From Lentisphaerota bacterium (lineage in GTDB: Bacteria > Verrucomicrobiota > Kiritimatiellia > RFP12 > UBA1067): a DNA stretch of 7,413 nt. This document shows positions 1-7,413 of this stretch, piece after piece. Location of the stretch: NCBI GenBank assembly GCA_015061765.1, contig SUVZ01000182.1, forward strand, positions 1 to 7,413, read 5' to 3'. The first letter of the stretch is position 1; each line of letters starts with the position of its first letter. The notes beneath the pieces were generated by a model. It was not told where the DNA came from. It was given only the letters and a program-made list of their open reading frames with translations, and made no database searches. The position numbers were made by a program, and so were the translations under genes.

Positions 1-1
1 A

Positions 2-2869
2 GCACTGTTTGGCGCAAAGTCTTACAGCCAGAGGGCCCGGTTCTGTCCGCAGCTCGAAGAGGACGAAGAGGAGCCTGAGGACGAAGAAGATCCCGATGAT
101 GGCGATACCGGCGGTGGTTCTGATGACGGTTCGGACGGTAATGGAAATGACGGCAACGATAATGACGATGACGAAGAGGAAGAAGATCATGCCTGCGATG
201 AAAACTGCGACTGCTGGCAGAGTTCGGACAACGGTGATCTTCCTCCAGATGATGGTACTGACGACGGTAACCCTGATCCGGAACCTGAGCCTGAGCCCGA
301 TCCGGAAAACTGCCCTGAACATGGCGTTCCGTTTGAAGAGTGCAGAAGCGAACATGAGGAGGAATATGAGGAGGCTTCTAGAACGTACGCACAGCTTCAA
401 GGCGTGCTTCTTCTGAGGAATCCAACGCACTACCATGACATATGGCTCGATGTTCCGGACGAGGATGCCCCACAGTGCTGCCCGTGTCCTGACCATGCCA
501 CGAACTATGTTTCCTTATCCTATGTGTCTGGCAGGCTTTCCCTGCTTGACGAGAACGGGGCAAGGTTCTCCAGGACGACAAAATCCTGCAATGTATTCGT
601 GGGCGGTGTTTCGCCAAGCAAGGGCATCGGGGATACGCGGCTCATGTTCTCGCATAACGGCCGCACGTGCAGGGACACGCGCTATACCGTATTCGGGGTG
701 GGTATCTCCAGCGCAGGAAATGTGAGCCTGAGTGCGCTTAATGCCAAGAAACCGTCTTTCGGACTGCCTGTGGTCGTTGGGACGAACAGCATAAGCGCGA
801 GCCTGGATCTCGATCTGAAGGTCAGGCTTCAGACCGGACGGGTGAGGCTTTCCTTCACGGGTGCGACCGGATCGTTCAAGATGCTGTACCGCAGTCCATA
901 CGCCGGAGAATGGCGTACGCTCATCGACACCGAAAGCCGTCCGTTCATCGACATGGATATCTACGAGTGGCGTAACCTCTTCAGGAAGCGTCATGACGCG
1001 GCGTTCAGCGCTCCGGTTGCGATAGTGTCGGCAGAGGCTGGTCATTGCGATATCGAATTCCGCTACTGGCTTGGGAATGGCGTTTTCGCGGAGGATGTCG
1101 CAACCCAGCGCATAACGGCGGTCAATCCGCCATTCCTCCCGGACATTGACCGAGATGGGCAGATAACAAATACGGACATTGTTGAATATCTGAAAGGAAA
1201 AATCTTCAGATATTGGACTAACGAAGATACAATCAAAGGTGACTATGCGGGGCACATTTCCGATCAAGCTCCCAATGTCGCCGATCTTGTGGTGAACGGA
1301 AGGTGTGACTTGATAAATTTGTTCCCAATGAAGATTGACGTCAAAGACTTTATCGATGCCTGGGGAGCTACGGCAAAATGCGTCATTAGGGTTGAAGGGG
1401 ATGATAAGCCTTCATTTAATTTCTGCTTTGCGGACATCCCATGGTCGGAGTCAGGCTCGGTTCAAACATCGAGTGTTGCGACAGTTGAGGGGACGCTGCT
1501 AAGTCAGGCTCAGTTGCTTCCACTTGATTATCAGGGATATGAATTGCCTCATGAATTGCTGACGAGATTTTCGGAGGAGTCCGGTTTGGTTGTCTGCGAA
1601 GCGTTGAAGCCTTCTGCTTTGATGTGTGTAGATATAAAACTTGGAGACATGACCGTTTGTTCCTATTCAGTCCCTATGCTGATTCGTCGCGTCAAGGATA
1701 TGTACAGTTGGTGCAATTTCCGGCTTCTGTCCGGTCAGAATGCTGGCAGAGAGACTGAATTCCACATATTGCCGGAAGAGGACTATGCAAAATCCTTAAT
1801 ATTCCTGCATGGGGCGAATGTCTCAACTGAAGATGCGGAGCAATGGGGTGACGCTGTCTTCAAGCGGATGTGGTTATCAGGAATGCGGGCGAGATTCTAC
1901 AACATTGATTGGAGAAGCGACATTGGAAGCCCCGCGAATTATCACGCCAATGCGTCTAATGCGTTTGTCGTTGCAAGCCAGATAGCATCGACGATTAAGA
2001 GCATCCCCGGAGAAAAGACAATCATGGCTCATTCGCTTGGTAATATGGTCGTCTCATCCATGATACAGGATCATGGGTTGGAGGTGTCGAGTTACATCAT
2101 GTGCAATTCAGCTGTCCCGGCTGAGGCGTATGATACGAGTTTGAGCCTTCGTACACCAAAACTCGTTCATCCAGATTGGGTTGATTATCCGACAAATTCA
2201 TGGGCTTCGAGCTGGCATAGGCTTTTCAGCAATGACCTTAACGATGACAGGAAGTATCTTGGTTGGCCAGGTAGGTTTACTAAGGCTTTACCTGTTGCCG
2301 TCAATTTTTATTCGACAGGTGATGAGGTGTTGGAATTGGCCGTAGATAATGATGTTGGTGCGCTTACTGGCGTTACCGATTCTTTTGCTCATCATGCTTG
2401 GCATAAGCAGGAACTATTCAAAGGACGTGGGCTTGGTGTAGGATTGGGAGCTACCGATTGGTCTGGATGGAATATTGAAGAAAATTGGCTTGGAGTCAAC
2501 AAGATTTCAGTTGAGAAGGCTATGTCGATGAGCGACGCTGATTTCAAAACGAATACCGTTTTTTATTGCTATCCGTCAAGCATGAATGCGACAAATATTC
2601 CTCATTTCGTACGTAATGCGCATCTTGCACTTGGTATTCCTGCGTTAACGCCAGCGACAGGAGCTGGCGAAATTACAGCATTAGGTGCAACTCGAAATCA
2701 CAATCTTGACAACATTGATGAAGATAGTGGGGGTGTTTCTCGACCTAACGGATGGCCAAGTAAGTCAAGTTATACTGGTAGATGGCTTCATTCAGATATA
2801 AAGGATGTGTCTTTTTTCTATAATTTTAGATTGTATCAGTTCATAATTGAGAAAGGTGGATTACGATGA
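2..2869 (+). CDS. Large secreted multidomain protein with C-terminal alpha/beta hydrolase domain (5'-partial)
   Basis: The frame is open from the window edge to TGA at 2867-2869 (955 residues visible), so the true start lies outside; GTG at 404 is internal. Order by fragment residue: acidic linker 19-125; Cys clusters (CCPCPDH near 160); beta-rich segment about 165-370; dockerin-like loop 381-392; conserved module 392-520; alpha/beta hydrolase about 600-955. In the hydrolase FLHGAN (HG at 603-604) fits the oxyanion strand, AHSLGN the nucleophile elbow (Ser678), STGDEV the acid (Asp774) and LHSDIK the base (His930). This fold in general contains esterases, lipases and peptidases; the substrate cannot be read. 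Export is inferred from composition and from the exported partner gene, since the N-terminus is missing. GC falls from near 60% to about 40% at position 1160, inside the gene, suggesting a recombinant C-terminus. The stop overlaps the next start. Confidence 0.85.
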   Translation, partial: ALFGAKSYSQRARFCPQLEEDEEEPEDEEDPDDGDTGGGSDDGSDGNGNDGNDNDDDEEEEDHACDENCDCWQSSDNGDLPPDDGTDDGNPDPEPEPEPDPENCPEHGVPFEECRSEHEEEYEEASRTYAQLQGVLLLRNPTHYHDIWLDVPDEDAPQCCPCPDHATNYVSLSYVSGRLSLLDENGARFSRTTKSCNVFVGGVSPSKGIGDTRLMFSHNGRTCRDTRYTVFGVGISSAGNVSLSALNAKKPSFGLPVVVGTNSISASLDLDLKVRLQTGRVRLSFTGATGSFKMLYRSPYAGEWRTLIDTESRPFIDMDIYEWRNLFRKRHDAAFSAPVAIVSAEAGHCDIEFRYWLGNGVFAEDVATQRITAVNPPFLPDIDRDGQITNTDIVEYLKGKIFRYWTNEDTIKGDYAGHISDQAPNVADLVVNGRCDLINLFPMKIDVKDFIDAWGATAKCVIRVEGDDKPSFNFCFADIPWSESGSVQTSSVATVEGTLLSQAQLLPLDYQGYELPHELLTRFSEESGLVVCEALKPSALMCVDIKLGDMTVCSYSVPMLIRRVKDMYSWCNFRLLSGQNAGRETEFHILPEEDYAKSLIFLHGANVSTEDAEQWGDAVFKRMWLSGMRARFYNIDWRSDIGSPANYHANASNAFVVASQIASTIKSIPGEKTIMAHSLGNMVVSSMIQDHGLEVSSYIMCNSAVPAEAYDTSLSLRTPKLVHPDWVDYPTNSWASSWHRLFSNDLNDDRKYLGWPGRFTKALPVAVNFYSTGDEVLELAVDNDVGALTGVTDSFAHHAWHKQELFKGRGLGVGLGATDWSGWNIEENWLGVNKISVEKAMSMSDADFKTNTVFYCYPSSMNATNIPHFVRNAHLALGIPALTPATGAGEITALGATRNHNLDNIDEDSGGVSRPNGWPSKSSYTGRWLHSDIKDVSFFYNFRLYQFIIEKGGLR
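56..376 (+). other. Acidic, low-complexity Asp/Glu/Pro/Gly linker with Cys/His clusters
   Basis: About 107 codons of the large gene are dominated by GAN and GGN codons, giving runs such as EEDEEEPEDEED and PDPEPEPEPDPE. Two Cys/His groups break the acidic run: CDENCDC, and a CPEHG...EEC...H group just before the globular part starts. Acidic DG- and PE-rich segments of this kind occur in calcium-binding or cell-surface tethers; metal binding by the Cys/His groups is only a possibility. It probably separates an anchoring or secretion part left of the window from the globular domains to the right. The other two forward frames here also lack stops over much of the stretch, a side effect of the codon bias. 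Confidence 0.8.
1142..1177 (+). other. EF-hand/dockerin-like calcium-binding loop
   Basis: The translation DIDRDGQITNTD has Asp at loop positions 1, 3, 5 and 12, Gly at 6 and Ile at 8, the classic DxDxDGxIxxxD arrangement, followed by an amphipathic helix-like IVEYLKG. Dockerin modules use this form with Asp rather than Glu at position 12 and normally have two such loops. Only one intact loop is visible here, so it may be a structural calcium site rather than a cohesin-binding dockerin. It lies exactly at the GC-content break, and its last residue opens the repeated module. Confidence 0.8.
1175..1561 (+). repeat. Conserved module, copy A (internal to the large gene)
   Basis: 129 codons that align without a gap to copy B at 7010-7396. 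The first 64 residues (starting DIVEYLKG, containing FRYWTNEDT, VNGRCDLINLF and ending FIDAWG) are identical to copy B at 42 positions. The following 65 residues keep exactly the same length but only about 9 identities, ending in PHELL against PSELL. This is an old paralogous repeat, not a recent duplication. It lies between the calcium loop and the hydrolase, the position of a pre-effector or connector domain. Confidence 0.85.
2853..2859 (+). promoter_or_regulatory. Ribosome binding site for the exported partner gene
   Basis: AAGGTGG sits 6 nt before the ATG at 2866, inside the last codons of the hydrolase gene. With the ATGA stop/start overlap it indicates coupled translation of the two products from one mRNA. 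No promoter-like gap separates them. Confidence 0.7.
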
Positions 2870-3822
2870 AAAAAAAAGTTATTGTATTTGCATTAATAAT
2901 GTTTTCAACTGTAGTGATGGCACTCAAAAAAGATCCGAATTATTTGAGAGCAAGACGTCAAGGTGCTGAAACGCATGTGAATGTGCGTATTGTTGACGAA
3001 CTTGGAGAATCTGTATCAAACGCCAATATCAAAGTTTTTATGGGGATGAACTTTCGACCGAAAGGTTATTGGATTAAAGGCATAACAGATAAGAATGGAG
3101 TTTTTGCCGTAAAGGGCAAATCCTGTGGCGATGAGTTAGAAATATTTGTGGAAAAACAGGGGTATTATAATTCAAGACAGAAGCTATGTTTTGCAAAGAT
3201 GGGATCAGAACACAAAGTCTCGGATGGCAAGTGGTTGCCATATGGTGCAACTGAAATTCTTCAACTGCGACGCATTCATAATCCTATAGTATTACACAGT
3301 TTTGGTTTTGGTGCGGGTAAGGATGTGCCAAGTACCAATACATGGATCGGTGTTGATATGGCAAGAGGAGATTTTGTTAAGCCACATGGAAAAGGTGATA
3401 GGGCTGATTTCGAGATTATGACAGAGTGGGATGGTCGTCCGCCAGTCGATTGTGATTATTGCGCAGTAAACATTCGTTTTACAGAGCCGTTATCAGGGGG
3501 ATATTATGCCTCCAAGGTACAGGAAAGCGAATATCCGTATGTTTATCAAGCAAATGGCGGCAATGTTTATAATGTCCGTCAGTTTAAGGTCGTTGGGCGA
3601 GATCGGATTCACCAAGACAAACAGTCGCGGTATGGGAATGATTCTGTACTTGTTACACGCACTCGCTGTTTACTGAATGAAACAGGTGATTTAGTGGTTG
3701 CGAATTATGGTCTTATTAGAATTCTAAGTGTAGATGCTGGATGGAATGGAAAACCAACAATGCGACTGGCTTGCATTTTTAATCCTACTCCCAACGATAC
3801 GAATCTAGAGCCGAAGCTGTGA
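2866..3822 (+). CDS. Exported protein with Ig-like/carboxypeptidase-regulatory-like domain, coupled to the hydrolase gene; function unknown
   Basis: 318 residues, not recognised as a named family. MKKK followed by a hydrophobic stretch (residues 5-19) and V-M-A at 17-19 reads as a Sec signal peptide cut near Ala19; there is no lipobox Cys. Residues about 36-108 ([21 protein letters not shown], then [11 protein letters not shown] and VEKQGYY) have the strand pattern and T-D-x-N-G turn of CarboxypepD_reg/CnaB-type beta sandwiches. The rest is beta-rich with no recognisable motif. ATG is chosen because it gives the signal peptide and a good RBS and overlaps the previous stop (ATGA). Its coupling to an effector-like hydrolase suggests a partner acting in the same exported compartment, perhaps an inhibitor/immunity protein, chaperone or anchor; none of these is shown. 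Codon use is AT-rich like the hydrolase part. Confidence 0.8.
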
Positions 3823-3906
3823 ACAAAATAAGTGTCCGACATGGATGAGAAGAATACGAAAAAAGATAGGACGATACAGTAGTCAATACTGAAACTGCTA
3901 GCCTTG
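3823..3906. other. Short convergent intergenic gap, weak hairpin only
   Basis: The plus-strand exported-protein gene and the minus-strand nuclease gene converge here. The only structure seen is a 5-bp stem with a 5-nt loop at 3877-3891 (CAGTA...TACTG) with no adjacent T-run on either strand. It is not a convincing terminator. Confidence 0.4.
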
Positions 3907-5069
3907 TTATCTATTACCTTTCGCTCGGTTGTGGGTTTTGCATAGCATTTGACAGTTTGCGATATCGGTTGCACCACCTTTCGACCATGCCGTAACATGG
4001 TCGGCGTCCATTTCGGCGAATTTCCATATCCGCTTGGCGTTTGCTGTATGACCAATAGCGCATAAAGGACAGTTGGAGACGCCTTTCTTTTCTGCCATCT
4101 TTGTCTGCTTTGCATAGACGACCTTTGTCTCCTTTGGCTCGAAAACGCGAACATCAAGAAGCTGCGGATTTTTTCTCCACCTAATATGAATTCGAAAATC
4201 CCCCTGCGGTTCTTAACGAAGCCATCCTCGTACAGTTCTTTAACGCGGGTCCAAACTTTTAGTTTGTTGTATGGATTTTCATGGTACGTCTTATAAAGCC
4301 GTCCCCATTCCAGACCGCACATTTCGTCCTCAATCCCTTCAAAAGTGCCGCTAGCCCAGTCGATGACAGTTTCAAAATATGTCTTTAGTTCTTCGATCCC
4401 AACATCTTTGCGGTGAGCGCTCATATAGCCATCGATGTTGCCTTCTGAAACCCACTCAAGCGCTGTTTTCAGAATCTGCTGCCGTCGTTCATCTCCCTTG
4501 ACATAGCTTTCCCACTTCTGCATTTTTGCATTCGCAGAATTGCTGAACTCGGCTTTTGCCGCAGTGACAAATGGCCCGGAGTAGATTGCATTGAGAAGTT
4601 CCTGTTCGTTGAGCGGAATGCCGGCTATGTTGATTGTCTTGAACCATTCTTTTATTTCGTGTTCCTCTCCTTCGCAGACATAGATTGTCAAAGGAGTTTC
4701 GAGAATCTTCTTTTGGATTGTCGCATCCAAACCTGTGAAATACTGCTGCATTCCGCTTGAATCGACAACGGAAAACTTCTCTTTCACGAAACGCCCGAAA
4801 CTTGTAATGCGTTGCTGGCCATCAAGAACCTCATACATCCCAGATGTGGTCTTTACAAAATAGAGAAGTCCGAGTGGATATCCTTTCAGGATGGAATCAA
4901 TTACCGCGACATCTCGTTTGCCGTCAGCGTAAATGTAGTTGCGCTGATATTCAGGCTGGATGACGAGTTTTCCGCCCCAGCCGAAAAGACCCTTGCCTTC
5001 AAGCTCGTTGTAGATGAAGCCATCGCAGATGTCGGCAACTGTGAGATCGGTGAGAAGTTGAGTGGTCAT
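3907..5069 (-). CDS. DUF262 (GmrSD/ParB-like) plus HNH endonuclease, interrupted by a frameshift
   Basis: Residues 1-300 from ATG at 5069 carry DUF262 hallmarks: QPEYQR at 38-43, then [11 protein letters not shown] and the DGQQR motif at 83-87. The family includes GmrS, BrxU and SspE, where this domain binds and hydrolyses nucleotides and controls an attached nuclease. After K300 the frame changes at an A6 tract (4169-4174). The -1 frame continues [16 protein letters not shown] into CPLC, DADHV, NCQMLC and KTHNRAKGN, a full HNH/zinc-finger nuclease end, stopping at 3907. One extra A would give an intact 387-residue protein; as written the first frame runs on in nonsense to 3705. It may be a genuine null allele, a slippage site or a sequencing error. 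It lies 222 nt behind the methyltransferase on the same strand, suggesting a restriction or modification-sensing partnership. The start is supported by AAAGGAG 6 nt upstream. Confidence 0.85.
4169..4174 (-). other. Homopolymer frameshift site (A6 on the coding strand)
   Basis: The coding strand reads GGA-GAA-AAA-ATC-CGC, leaving the conserved frame. With seven As it would read GGA-GAA-AAA-AAT-CCG and enter the HNH frame directly, so the two halves meet with no lost residues. The tract does not form a canonical X-XXY-YYZ -1 slippery heptamer in the zero frame, but an A-run of this length can slip during transcription or be miscounted by sequencers. Confidence 0.85.
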
Positions 5070-5075
5070 AGAATG

Positions 5076-5082
5076 CTCCTTT
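5076..5082 (-). promoter_or_regulatory. Ribosome binding site of the DUF262-HNH gene
   Basis: AAAGGAG on the minus strand, 6 nt from the ATG at 5069. It is a strong Shine-Dalgarno match and supports independent translation after the long spacer. Confidence 0.75.
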
Positions 5083-5097
5083 TGTTTATTTTTGATT

Positions 5098-5115
5098 AAC
5101 GCAGAGGTGCAGAGA
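5098..5115 (+). repeat. Partial copy of the AACGCAGAG-type dispersed repeat
   Basis: AACGCAGAGGTGCAGAGA matches the two ends of the 35-nt repeats found inside the methyltransferase gene but lacks the middle. It is read here on the plus strand, opposite to the other two copies. It lies only 28 nt upstream of the nuclease start codon. Confidence 0.65.
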
Positions 5116-5124
5116 TTTTCAGTC

Positions 5125-5150
5125 GTGTAGATCGTGTAGAAATGTGTAGA
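5125..5150 (+). repeat. Three short direct repeats of GTGTAGA
   Basis: GTGTAGA occurs at 5125-5131, 5134-5140 and 5144-5150, spaced 9 and 10 nt apart, so the copies lie on nearly the same helix face. They could be a small iteron or operator upstream of the nuclease gene, or simply part of a dispersed repeat. Nothing else supports a binding site. Confidence 0.45.
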
Positions 5151-5172
5151 TTCTTTTGGGGCAGGATTAATT

Positions 5173-5271
5173 TTGCTTTCGCTTCTTGGAGTTTTGGAGA
5201 TTTTGAGAAAAGGAGATTTTAAATACCCTCCAATCCTTCAAACCTCTCAATCTCCCAGTAGCGAAAGCAAC
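5173..5271. repeat. About 99-bp imperfect palindrome (MITE-like or long hairpin)
   Basis: The terminal 11-nt arms are perfect (TTGCTTTCGCT at 5173-5183, AGCGAAAGCAA at 5261-5271). Inward the arms continue to match at about 23 of the next 37 positions, so nearly the whole element folds back on itself. It fills most of the spacer between the methyltransferase stop (5292) and the nuclease start. As RNA it could stabilise or end the methyltransferase mRNA. As DNA it looks like a non-autonomous palindromic element. No target-site duplication is obvious. Confidence 0.65.
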
Positions 5272-5291
5272 CATATCTCCACATCCTTGCA

Positions 5292-6530
5292 TTATTTCTC
5301 CTCCCGATGCCGAATAAGGATTCGTTGATAAACTTTCTCTTGAATACCTTCAACGGTTAAAACACCGCTCGCATTCAAATCGTACGATCCCTTCTTCCCA
5401 AACTTCAGTTGATATGCTTTTTGACATTCTTCTCGATTATACACTCTTGTCTTTAAGCTATACAAATCCTCATTTTCACACATTCCCAAAATCTCAAACT
5501 GCTCGGGACAGTATTTGTCGAGAAATGAGATTGGAACACCCATTACGCCTTCATAATCGTTTGGGATCGCGTCGGTGAAAGGGACTTCGATTGCATCATA
5601 GTTGTCGTACTTCAGATACTTTTTGCCGCGCAATTCCTTATGCCGGGAAAACTTGATGTTGTCCGCCATTGTCATAAGTTGAAGTGGCTGATGGCGGCGT
5701 CCATGCTCAAGGTTGGTGAACCAGCGAACACCTTTGACTCGAATAAAATGATTTCCGTCTTCATCAATTCTCCAGCCCGCAGCATTAAGAGGATATTCTT
5801 TAGGGACGCCAAATTCCCTGTCTCCACTATGAATGCTTTCCCCAAGCCACATTTTATTTTCCTTGATCAGGGGAAACACCTCTTTGTATGTAATCGCATT
5901 CATGTTTCCGATGATCAAAAACTTCATCTCTGCGACCTCTGCGCCTTTGCGCCTCTGCGTTAAAACATCGCCTTCCAGTATCCACGCCAAAAACTCCCTG
6001 AAAAGTGAGAACGGCGGATTGGTCACGATTATATCCGCTTCATCTCTGAGCCTCTTCACTTCCTTGCTTCTGAAATCTCCGTCACCTTCAAGATACTTCC
6101 ATTCCAGATCTTCGATGTCTATCTTCCCGTTGTTGTTCGTGTCGTGATCGAGAATGAAGATTTTGCCGTGTGCCTTTGTTTTCTTTTCGTCAAACTGAAT
6201 ACTTTGCCGTTCAAAAGTAGAAGGCTGATGCACAAAAACATCTTTGCGCCCTCTGTGCCTTTGCGTCTCTGCGTTGAAGAAAGATTTACTCTCTACTGCG
6301 TAGCTGGTTGAGATAAGTTTTTTCAAACCGAATCGTTCAAAGTTCTGAGCAAAGAAACGTGTGAAATTGCTCCATTCGGGATCATCGCACGGAAGAAGAA
6401 CCGTCTTCCCGCGGAAAACATCGGCGTCGTAATCGAGATACGCGTTCACCTCTTTTTGGATGTCGGCATATTGCGTATAGAACTCATCGTTCTTCGCATT
6501 CTTTGCATTGGAAAGATTCTTGTTTGCCAT
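5292..6530 (-). CDS. EcoRI-family adenine-specific DNA methyltransferase (with two in-frame repeat insertions)
   Basis: 412 residues. The N-terminus (NLSNAKNAKNDEFYTQYADI) and NPPFSLFREF at 171-180, then FLIIGNMNAITYKEVFPLIK, fit the EcoRI-type N6-adenine methyltransferase family, in which NPPF is the catalytic motif IV and SAM is the methyl donor. VLLPCDDPEWSNF (44-56) probably belongs to the cofactor side. Two stretches look inserted: FFNAETQRHRGRKD (84-97) and DVLTQRRKGAEVAE (188-201), both translations of a 35-nt dispersed repeat. Despite this the frame is intact. Residues 130-141 form an EF-hand-like DTNNNGKIDIED. From memory the protein is longer than EcoRI methylase itself, partly through these segments. 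The start has AAGGA 7 nt upstream. No EcoRI-type endonuclease is visible; the DUF262-HNH gene downstream on the same strand is the candidate partner. The recognition sequence cannot be inferred. Confidence 0.9.
   Translation of the reverse strand: MANKNLSNAKNAKNDEFYTQYADIQKEVNAYLDYDADVFRGKTVLLPCDDPEWSNFTRFFAQNFERFGLKKLISTSYAVESKSFFNAETQRHRGRKDVFVHQPSTFERQSIQFDEKKTKAHGKIFILDHDTNNNGKIDIEDLEWKYLEGDGDFRSKEVKRLRDEADIIVTNPPFSLFREFLAWILEGDVLTQRRKGAEVAEMKFLIIGNMNAITYKEVFPLIKENKMWLGESIHSGDREFGVPKEYPLNAAGWRIDEDGNHFIRVKGVRWFTNLEHGRRHQPLQLMTMADNIKFSRHKELRGKKYLKYDNYDAIEVPFTDAIPNDYEGVMGVPISFLDKYCPEQFEILGMCENEDLYSLKTRVYNREECQKAYQLKFGKKGSYDLNASGVLTVEGIQEKVYQRILIRHREEK
5927..5961 (-). repeat. 35-nt dispersed repeat inside the methyltransferase gene, copy 2
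   Basis: On the coding strand it starts AACGCAGAGGCGCAAAGG. It matches copy 1 at 31 of 35 positions in the same orientation, but is read one phase later (codons ACG-CAG-AGG), giving TQRRKGAEVAE. It sits just after the catalytic NPPF region, between WILEG and MKFLIIGN, which would otherwise be close neighbours. Confidence 0.85.
6241..6275 (-). repeat. 35-nt dispersed repeat inside the methyltransferase gene, copy 1
   Basis: On the coding strand it starts AACGCAGAGACGCAAAGG and is translated NAETQRHRGRK (codons AAC-GCA-GAG). Peptides of the NAETQRHRG type are the well-known signature of a short repeat scattered through many bacterial genomes, including PVC members, and tolerated in genes because its frames lack stops. 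Here it separates residues 84 and 97 of the enzyme. Confidence 0.85.
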
Positions 6531-6537
6531 TTCATCG

Positions 6538-6542
6538 TCCTT
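6538..6542 (-). promoter_or_regulatory. Ribosome binding site of the methyltransferase gene
   Basis: AAGGA on the minus strand, 7 nt upstream of the ATG at 6530. It fixes the start that gives the family-typical N-terminus. Confidence 0.65.
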
Positions 6543-6578
6543 GCGCTCTTGTCTGCCGCTGGACGATTCCGATGCATG

Positions 6579-6609
6579 AAAAAGAGCGCACTTTCTTCTC
6601 CGTGCACTC
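6579..6609 (-). terminator. Terminator-like hairpin 2 in the methyltransferase leader
   Basis: On the minus strand GAGTGCAC pairs with GTGCGCTC (8 bp including one G-U), with a 10-nt loop, followed by TTTTT. It points toward the methyltransferase, whose start is only about 48 nt beyond the T-run, leaving little room for a promoter in between. It may therefore act as an attenuator in the leader rather than as a plain gene end. Confidence 0.55.
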
Positions 6610-6634
6610 CCCTAAAGCCCGACCAAAGGCCTGA

Positions 6635-7413
6635 ATAGAATACACGAAAAAGAAGTGCGCCCATACGGGCGCACCTCAACTATCATGCCGTTCTATTCTA
6701 AATATTGGTCGTATTTTAGGGGAACGACTTGTTAGCTTAGATGCTAAATTGTCTCTCGGCGCATTGGATTTCTCCCCGTTGCACCATAGTCTTGTGATTG
6801 TCCACAAAACGCCGATAATTATATCAAATTCTCATGTTGACGATCCATCAATGGGCAACTTTGGTAAAATGTGGCGCATGGGATGGTATTTGCAATCAAA
6901 CAAATCAGATTTAGATTCAATGTGTGATGTTGAATCTAAATCTATCGGTTTTAAATCAAGTGCTACCATGTCGCCATTATACGCTTTTTGTGATGATTTG
7001 CATGATTCGGATGTTGCTGAATACATCAAGGGCAGGCTGTTCCGGTACTGGTTTAATGAGGATACGGTCAAGGGCGACTATGATGGACACATTCCCGATT
7101 ACACGCGAAATGCCGCCGACGGCGTGGTGAACGGACGGTACGATCTCATAAACCTTTTTGCCGCAAGGCTCGACCTGAAGCCGTTTATCGATACGTGGGG
7201 ATCGTCGGTCAAGTTCGAGCTCTCCGCATACGGCGAAGACACGATGCGCTACTGCGCCGTGAATGTGAATCCGAATGAAGTCGGCAAGATATATACTGAC
7301 GATACTTTTACGAAAAACGCAAATGTGCCCTTGCATTCCGCGCCATTGACCGCGCTTCAGTATGACGCAATGCAGATAAATCCATCGGAGCTTTTGGGCG
7401 AAGGCAGCGCGCC
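6635..7413 (+). CDS. Gene fragment: AT-rich open frame fused to module copy B of the large secreted protein (start unresolved, 3'-partial)
   Basis: This frame follows a TGA at 6632 and stays open to the window edge (259 codons). The first codons overlap terminator hairpin 1, so real coding probably begins after about 6690. No ATG occurs before 6851 and none has a Shine-Dalgarno sequence, which suggests a 5'-truncated gene. Part 1 (about 6700-7009) is AT-rich and reads plausibly as protein (SPLHHSLVIVHK, GNFGKMWRMGWYLQ, SPLYAFCDDLHDS); I do not recognise it, and a hydrolase or peptidase remnant is only a guess from the His pair. Part 2 (from 7010) is GC-richer and is the paralogue of module A in the large gene on the left. 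The calcium loop that precedes module A is missing or degenerate here. It may be a displaced 3' end of that gene or the next member of a gene family. Confidence 0.6.
   Translation, partial: MEYTKKKCAHTGAPQLSCRSILNIGRILGERLVSLDAKLSLGALDFSPLHHSLVIVHKTPIIISNSHVDDPSMGNFGKMWRMGWYLQSNKSDLDSMCDVESKSIGFKSSATMSPLYAFCDDLHDSDVAEYIKGRLFRYWFNEDTVKGDYDGHIPDYTRNAADGVVNGRYDLINLFAARLDLKPFIDTWGSSVKFELSAYGEDTMRYCAVNVNPNEVGKIYTDDTFTKNANVPLHSAPLTALQYDAMQINPSELLGEGSA
6647..6677 (-). terminator. Strong intrinsic-terminator-like hairpin 1
   Basis: On the minus strand GAGGTGCGCCC and GGGCGCACTTC form an 11-bp stem (one G-U) around a GTAT tetraloop, followed directly by TTTTT (6647-6651). There is no T-run on the plus strand, so it works right to left only. 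No minus-strand gene is visible to its right, so it either ends antisense transcription, is left over from a lost gene, or belongs to the methyltransferase leader. An 8-bp inverted repeat (GAATAGAA at 6633-6640, TTCTATTC at 6691-6698) flanks it. Confidence 0.7.
7010..7396 (+). repeat. Conserved module, copy B
   Basis: 129 codons colinear with copy A at 1175-1561: it opens DVAEYIKG, contains FRYWFNEDT and VNGRYDLINLF, reaches FIDTWG, and ends PSELL, with no gap relative to A. GC is about 50-60% per line, close to the start of the large gene and unlike the sequence just before it (28% over 6901-6960). Confidence 0.85.

Follow-up and report, generated by a model that had tools for sequence, protein, structure and literature searches.

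Did an incoming piece of DNA displace the end of a gene in contig SUVZ01000182.1 of a Lentisphaerota bacterium (GenBank assembly GCA_015061765.1; GTDB lineage Bacteria; Verrucomicrobiota; Kiritimatiellia; RFP12; UBA1067)? The question is raised by two copies of one protein module, which lie in the left and right parts of the 7,413-nt stretch analyzed here (positions 1 to 7,413 of the contig, forward strand; hereafter, the window). Copy A belongs to a long gene at the left edge (2-2869, + strand, 955 codons), of which the window holds the 3' part, the 5' end lying outside; copy B stands at the right edge, and between the two lie a partner gene, a restriction-modification (R-M) pair and the remnant of an RHS-repeat protein. 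A preliminary description of this DNA had proposed that a low-GC block carrying a new C-terminal half, a partner gene and a restriction-like pair displaced the original 3' end of the left gene, in the manner of the C-terminal tips of Rhs and contact-dependent inhibition (CDI) toxins. In its main point, that interpretation is supported. We consider it probable that the window records the exchange of one tip for another at a polymorphic, effector-immunity-like locus in a gut bacterium of the Kiritimatiellae type. A carrier of one lineage (type 1), anchored in the membrane, would have lost its own C-terminal tip and gained, with a cognate partner, a lipase-like tip of another lineage, at a border used repeatedly in the family. 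The old tip would have been left 5.8 kb downstream, coreless, behind the R-M pair and the RHS remnant.

Two lineages within the left gene

The carrier part of the left gene (2-1132, +) comprises an acidic linker and a core of the type-1 lineage. It leads into the exchange border (1133-1177, +), placed by change-point fits in chosen pairs of proteins, where an ITxVxPP-like motif at the core end is followed by a DxDxDG loop. The incoming module (copy A) and a middle segment of a type-2 lineage occupy 1148-1660 (+), and an α/β-hydrolase tip completes the gene at 1682-2869 (+, stop codon included). A search for relatives with residues 130 to 640 scored 7,997 candidates and gave 89 proteins. Residues 131 to 378 are 89 to 94% identical to five proteins, P0003 to P0007; in a part-by-part comparison the core reaches 88 to 92% against these five, and the acidic linker is 85 to 95% identical to that of P0003, P0004 and P0007. 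Identity of the tip to P0003 to P0006, the four of these five that have one, is only 33 to 35%, and module A with its middle segment reaches 40 to 47% against the type-1 relatives P0003 to P0007. Other proteins show the reverse pattern, with a core near 42% and a tip up to 79% identical to the left gene. When a one-step change-point model was fitted against each of P0003, P0004, P0005 and P0006, the break fell at residue 378 every time. At the level of protein comparison, the left gene is thus shown to be a chimera whose core and tip come from different lineages.

The same relatives connect the two edges of the window. In P0003 to P0006 the core continues straight into sequence of the copy B type (in P0007, as far as the module), and copy B is 81.6 to 94.1% identical to P0003 to P0007 over 136 amino acids (aa). 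Uninterrupted genes joining a type-1 core to copy-B-type sequence, for which the preliminary description recommended a search, therefore exist in P0003, P0004, P0005 and P0006. A pattern in which left genes always end in the low-GC tip and right genes always have an N-terminus of their own is not what the relatives show. The 161 genomes searched did not include the window's species, and the best core among them reached 50%; the type-1 gene could therefore not be aligned as DNA, and the breakpoints given here are those of the protein. P0007 itself carries, behind its type-1 core and module, a short tail weakly resembling the end of a GH123 catalytic domain (E = 0.002, below the cut-off) and no hydrolase tip; it may be a rearranged gene or a misassembly. 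A viral origin was rejected after two scans of viral contigs found no relative, and a search of plasmids with the tip gave no match.

The breaks in base composition noted in the preliminary description are real: GC content is 0.58 over 801-1100 but 0.47 over 1101-1400, and 0.38 over 6701-7000 but 0.52 over 7001-7300. GC content at third codon positions follows the same course, at 0.67 in the coding sequence 404-1177, 0.47 in 1178-1660, 0.42 in 1661-2866 and 0.65 in copy B. The module at both edges is likewise paralogous as described, its copies being 44% identical over 135 aa (BLASTP E = 1e-38) and 68% identical over 199 nt of DNA. They share one frame, and the interval 1178-7012 measures 5,835 nt, a multiple of three, which is a one-in-three coincidence. 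The position of the left break needs a correction: it had been put at 1175, and protein identity breaks about 14 residues earlier, at residue 378 (about nucleotide 1133). The composition step recurs across the family described below, with tips lower in GC than cores in 26 of 26 loci, partners lower than tips in 57 of 64, and medians declining stepwise from carrier core (0.59) to tip (0.53) to partner (0.47) over 75 tip loci. A step shared by the whole family cannot by itself establish that an insertion is recent, and we rejected GC content as such a proof.

Recurrence of the exchange

A genome scan anchored on the tip retained 80 of 135 confirmed stretches, corresponding to 79 loci, mostly in metagenome-assembled genomes (MAGs) titled Kiritimatiellae, Lentisphaerae or Verrucomicrobia and many of them from goat, sheep or rumen. 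Similar carriers with dissimilar tips are common. Among 94 proteins with both core and tip, close relatives included, tips were at most 50% identical in 214 of the 724 pairs whose cores were at least 70% identical. The extremes reached core and tip identities of 98 and 30%, 95 and 29%, and 96 and 34%, and of 83 and 33% within a single genome; 7 of 11 core clusters with several members contain at least two tip clusters. A long, similar N-terminal part with a strongly differing C-terminal part is a feature of polymorphic toxins. For change-point analysis we picked 16 pairs in eight groups by hand; they represent the most extreme cases and cannot count as independent. In 12 of the 16 pairs and 6 of the 8 groups, the drop in identity coincided with the core end to within 15 residues, in the surroundings of an ITSVxPPL motif and the DxDxDG loop.

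Displaced and standalone tip cassettes, a second feature of polymorphic toxins, are also frequent: additional tips or tip fragments occur in 14 of the 79 loci and at least two partner genes in 23. Both tip exchange and nearby headless tips, as proposed for the window, therefore recur in the family. The core is present in 29 of the 79 loci, some of the other 50 being cut by contig ends. Nine coreless or headless genes were scanned for domains. Those of L017, L040, L052, L074 and L078 contain TSP3, laminin-G, PKD or Big domains, and that of L038 a weak Chlam_PMP repeat; no N-terminal domain was found in those of L033, L036 and L055. When the search was anchored on the core instead, the loci taken from it (L110 to L129, 20 of 41 core matches) all ran into the same tip family, so that several unrelated tip folds on one carrier were not seen among these 20. 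P0070 and P0091 gave no tip match.

The right junction

Copy B (7004-7411, +) is headless. It comprises the module and the start of the middle segment of a type-1 tip, matching P0003 to P0007, in a frame that stays open from 6635 onward and is cut off by the right end of the window. What precedes it in the same frame is no core but the remnant of an RHS protein (6707-6931, +), which the preliminary description had missed. The remnant is 73% identical over its 75 aa to P0093, which carries Rhs_assc_core (TIGR03696) further on. The remnant had no match in 32 genomes, and its treatment as orphan sequence was dropped once a large protein search matched it to RHS proteins. The same fusion of RHS sequence to copy B is found in P0092 (194 aa, 6 members on 4 contigs; 89% identical), and the right junction is therefore not a one-off assembly artifact. 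Just before copy B, the residues LYAFC resemble the end of an RHS core, a match that is not significant (E = 9).

We infer that copy B was formerly the tail of the left gene itself, and the parts of the window may have arrived in one step. An RHS remnant at the right edge rather suggests more than one event; the arrival of a single block that included the restriction pair, as first proposed, and its clean removal in frame are conjectural. Copy B may also have another history: it could be an independent orphan tip, brought with or captured by an RHS fragment, with the tip swap on the left being a separate event. This is possible, although we hold it to be somewhat unlikely; it is compatible with a tip exchange in the left gene, and the odds of the two overlap. 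The in-frame RHS fusion, here and in P0092, speaks for it, as does an RHS-like stretch in a further locus (L068, 10352-10696; 31% identity to P0093 over 117 aa, E = 2e-9), about 1.4 kb beyond a partner gene. Against it stands the finding that a single gene encodes both the type-1 core and the type-1 tip in P0003 to P0006. RHS cores are present in 27 of 31 related genomes, a set to which L068 does not belong. In a by-eye comparison of these genomes, many of them in short contigs, every RHS core seen was more than 15 kb away from any tip, and the two occurred on the same contig, at a distance of about 19 kb, in one case (G041:C3).

Tip, partner and export

The structure model of the tip is lipase-like. 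Several folds tie as its best match, including Tle3, a phospholipase of the type VI secretion system (T6SS), and ordinary lipases, one from goat rumen, are among the closest. The motif HSLG, which we take to be the nucleophile elbow, is invariant in 27 of 27 aligned tips, these having been chosen by hand. Searching the PDB by sequence with the tip returned nothing, nor did the same search with the methylase of the R-M pair. The tip is thus a predicted lipase-like α/β-hydrolase, and a matching enzyme activity would follow from the modeled fold. Overlapping its stop codon begins the partner gene (2866-3822, +), which encodes a candidate immunity protein of 318 aa with an N-terminal hydrophobic helix, a transthyretin/CnaB-like domain and a second beta part. 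Its structure model (pLDDT 91) has fold matches over residues 30 to 138, and PF13620 matches weakly, below the cut-off.

Tip and partner are coupled throughout the family. A partner homologue starts within 400 nt of 84 of 87 tips with a complete 3' end, at a median gap of 7.5 nt; the three exceptions are at a contig end (L016), in a fragment (L042) and in a fragment near a contig end (L052). Partner identity tracks that of the tip (rho = 0.66) and not that of the core (0.10) in 210 pairs of loci with cores, and tip and partner identities correlate at rho = 0.61 over all 2,278 pairs. A partner directly 3' of the tip and inherited with it is a further feature of polymorphic toxins. In locus L130, a tip and its partner are followed by a second partner, 69% identical to the partner in L055, although the tips of L130 and L055 are only 35% identical. 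This is as expected if a tip replacement left the old partner behind.

Among 86 carriers whose core begins after residue 500, two hydrophobic segments lie near the N-terminus in 57, one in 19, three in 3 and none in 7. Of 60 loops that separate the first two segments, 57 are positive. Membrane segments are oriented by the positive-inside rule, by which a positive loop places the rest of the carrier outside the cytoplasm. We therefore propose, as a working model, that the N-terminal segments anchor the carrier in the envelope, with most of the protein outside the cytoplasm. The tip could then hydrolyze a lipid or another ester in the envelope of a neighbor or of the cell itself, and the exported partner might block its cognate tip. 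Recombination at the border would exchange tip and partner jointly, and old tips and partners would persist as remnants. Toxicity of the tip, immunity through the partner and delivery to a target cell are all presumed in this model.

Several observations weigh against a tip exchange of the effector-immunity kind. RHS sequence adjoins copy B in the window and also occurs, as an RHS-like stretch, in L068. Four of the 16 chosen pairs change elsewhere than at the border: in those with P0038 the drop immediately precedes the tip, and in P0016/P0065 and P0020/P0064 it falls within the core. All tips found belong to one sequence family, when classical polymorphic toxins swap unrelated domains. Partners diverge faster than tips (for example, 49% against 85% identity), which fits immunity without proving it. 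L130 has a headless tip with a hydrophobic leader of its own, and a tip-partner pair may thus work without a carrier. Two N-terminal hydrophobic segments suggest that the carrier is anchored in the inner membrane, a location that would complicate delivery to other cells. Finally, the T6SS sheath family PF05943 was found in none of the 31 related genomes (MAGs, completeness not stated; the E. coli control was positive), a search that covered neither other secretion systems nor the window's own genome. With PF05943 absent from these genomes, no known delivery route can be named.

Part of this evidence would suit the same exchange without a weapon. The carrier could be an envelope or secreted lipase serving nutrition or envelope remodeling, with the partner as chaperone or regulator of the hydrolase, and divergence and swapping could result from changes of substrate or from phage or host pressure. 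The single hydrolase family, the hydrophobic N-terminal segments, the lack of a sheath gene in the 31 genomes and the ordinary lipases among the closest folds, one of them from goat rumen, all agree with such a role. Arrays of truncated tips and partners are hard to square with a chaperone, as is a partner apparently retained after its tip was replaced (L130 compared with L055), and we judge this explanation unlikely.

An assembly chimera between paralogues in the metagenome is a far weaker alternative. Each of the 31 genomes contains 1 to 7 tip matches, and no second sequence with the left junction was found. In the surroundings of the junctions, however, 7 nt is the longest exact word common to both sides (1100-1260 and 6940-7100). 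P0092 has the right junction too, on four contigs, the left frame stays open across its junction to a conserved C-terminus, and other carriers are equally chimeric; we regard such an artifact as very improbable. A simple pair of tandem paralogues separated by restriction genes, a notion that the paralogous modules invite, was rejected as barely credible because copy B is preceded by an RHS remnant and not a core and because the closest relatives of the left gene's core are not those of its tip.

Restriction-modification genes

Between the new and the old tip lies a reversed R-M pair. Its EcoRI-type adenine methyltransferase gene (5292-6530, - strand; PF13651, E = 2e-126) and the adjacent restriction-endonuclease-like gene (3907-5069, - strand), with GmrSD_N/DUF262 (PF03235, E = 7e-20) and HNH domains, match the PADLOC Type II models MTase_II and REase_II. 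In this they resemble Type II R-M systems composed of an EcoRI-type methylase (M) and a DUF262-HNH endonuclease (R). Unlike in such systems, the window's R gene is split between frames, REase_II model positions 17 to 317 matching in one and 325 to 371 in the other. An intact R gene was thus not found, and so the gene appears to be broken or misread. In locus L040, GmrSD_N and HNH share one open frame. Residues 129 to 166 of the methylase resemble an EF-hand-like calcium loop (PF13499, E = 0.003, below the cut-off).

The EcoRI-type methylase family was matched in 29 of 49 genomes. Neighborhood to tips was tested in 31 of the 49, namely these 29 plus G002 and G021, the same set in which tip matches, PF05943 and RHS cores were counted. 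Of 67 methylase rows, 5 scored too low and were discarded and 6 were combined with others, leaving 56 places; one of 80 tip matches was removed. Against expected counts of 0.20 and 0.58, respectively, 6 of the 56 methylases were found no more than 2 kb, and 8 no more than 7 kb, from a tip locus. The expected counts rest on genome sizes only, and with the 8 cases coming from 6 genomes the Poisson p is too favorable. The association is likely real, its size uncertain. For the only control, PF02384, matches of at least 40 bits were used, leaving out 11 that were second matches of a locus and one place on G042:C24, a contig with no tip; of the resulting 81, none was found up to 2 kb and 2 were found up to 7 kb from a tip, against 0.28 and 0.79 expected. 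On this control, a general enrichment of R-M genes near tips was set aside, and the link seems specific to the EcoRI type.

Gene order varies. Tip, partner(s), M and R follow one another in L005 and L064, and M, R, tip gene and partner in L040 and L076. L055 (8928-13885) and L130 (7295-12656) have M, tip, partner(s) and R, the tip in both being coreless; most neighboring frames in L130 overlap. The placement of the tip-partner unit between M and R in these last two loci, which also sets them apart from Type II R-M systems, leads us to speculate that the methylase/DUF262-HNH pair and the tip-partner pair form a composite conflict cassette, in which the R-M genes would aid entry into or persistence in carrier genes, or both pairs would act jointly. 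We consider this doubtful at present; if true, it would provide a restriction-linked route for the exchange of envelope effectors, and the tie to one R-M type makes restriction-aided movement of cassettes a testable idea.

Comparison with known systems

In CDI systems (CdiA-CT/CdiI), tip and immunity gene are exchanged at a fixed border, and orphan modules occur. The present family shares the exchange of tip and partner at a fixed border as well as the orphan modules, and no CdiA domain appeared in Pfam scans; CdiB was not part of the search. The T6SS pair Tle3/Tli3 (PDB 8boz) differs in that the present tip sits on a large carrier, PF05943 was not found in the 31 genomes and other lipases tie with Tle3 in Z score.

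Closer parallels are found in Rhs loci. One account describes main and displaced tips with immunity genes, recombination that can return a displaced tip to the main gene, and displaced tip fragments that usually have no start signals (PMC3967940). With the Rhs-CT/RhsI loci of enterobacteria, the family has in common a constant carrier, a variable tip, a partner directly downstream and displaced tip fragments with partners (PMC3967940). Unlike there, the present tips form one hydrolase family, and RHS sequence occurs only as the remnant by copy B and the stretch near L068. Neither RHS/YD repeats nor Rhs_assc_core was found on the carrier in Pfam and NCBIfam scans of the window's carrier part or in Pfam scans of P0003, P0007 and L001. 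Because the scanned carriers have no RHS repeats and the tips are of one family, the family works like Rhs loci but is not an Rhs system. We read the element as a probable effector-immunity cassette, exchangeable in the manner of polymorphic toxins; it stands apart through its single tip family, the absence of a T6SS sheath gene from the 31 genomes and its link to EcoRI-type methylases.

Polymorphic toxins in general, as surveyed in PMC3482391, show long, near-identical N-termini with differing C-termini, toxin-then-immunity gene order and strings of partner genes, read there as leftovers of earlier tip replacements; the present loci share these features, and the second partner in L130 fits the same reading. 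Lipase-like α/β-hydrolases, Tox-ABhydrolase-1, -2 and -3, are among the toxins of that survey (PMC3482391), a further likeness to the predicted tip. The present polymorphism differs in being sequence variation within one family, on scanned carriers with no known trafficking or pre-toxin domain. We did not find the family described in the open-licence literature on polymorphic toxins or effector-immunity proteins of Kiritimatiellae and Verrucomicrobia. Judged from sequence, an exchangeable cassette of lipase-like tip and partner, with an R-M pair and an RHS remnant between new and old tip, may represent a previously undescribed version of polymorphic-toxin-type exchange. It points to a large family of exchangeable, effector-immunity-like loci with a prominent place among uncultured Kiritimatiellae of the ruminant gut. 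Should the tips prove toxic, they would constitute a polymorphic system that draws on a single enzyme family and occurs in genomes where, as far as tested, a T6SS sheath gene is absent.

Other features of the window

An Rfam scan at the gathering threshold and a tRNA scan of the window gave no match. One DNA repeat occurs twice within the methylase frame (5910-5964 and 6227-6278; 82% identity over 55 nt) and looks like a dispersed repeat inserted in frame; by eye, a similar piece is found near 5095-5115, between the two restriction genes. Two inverted repeats were also seen, a GC-rich hairpin upstream of the methylase start (6652-6677) and an AT-rich palindrome where the RHS remnant ends (6907-6943).

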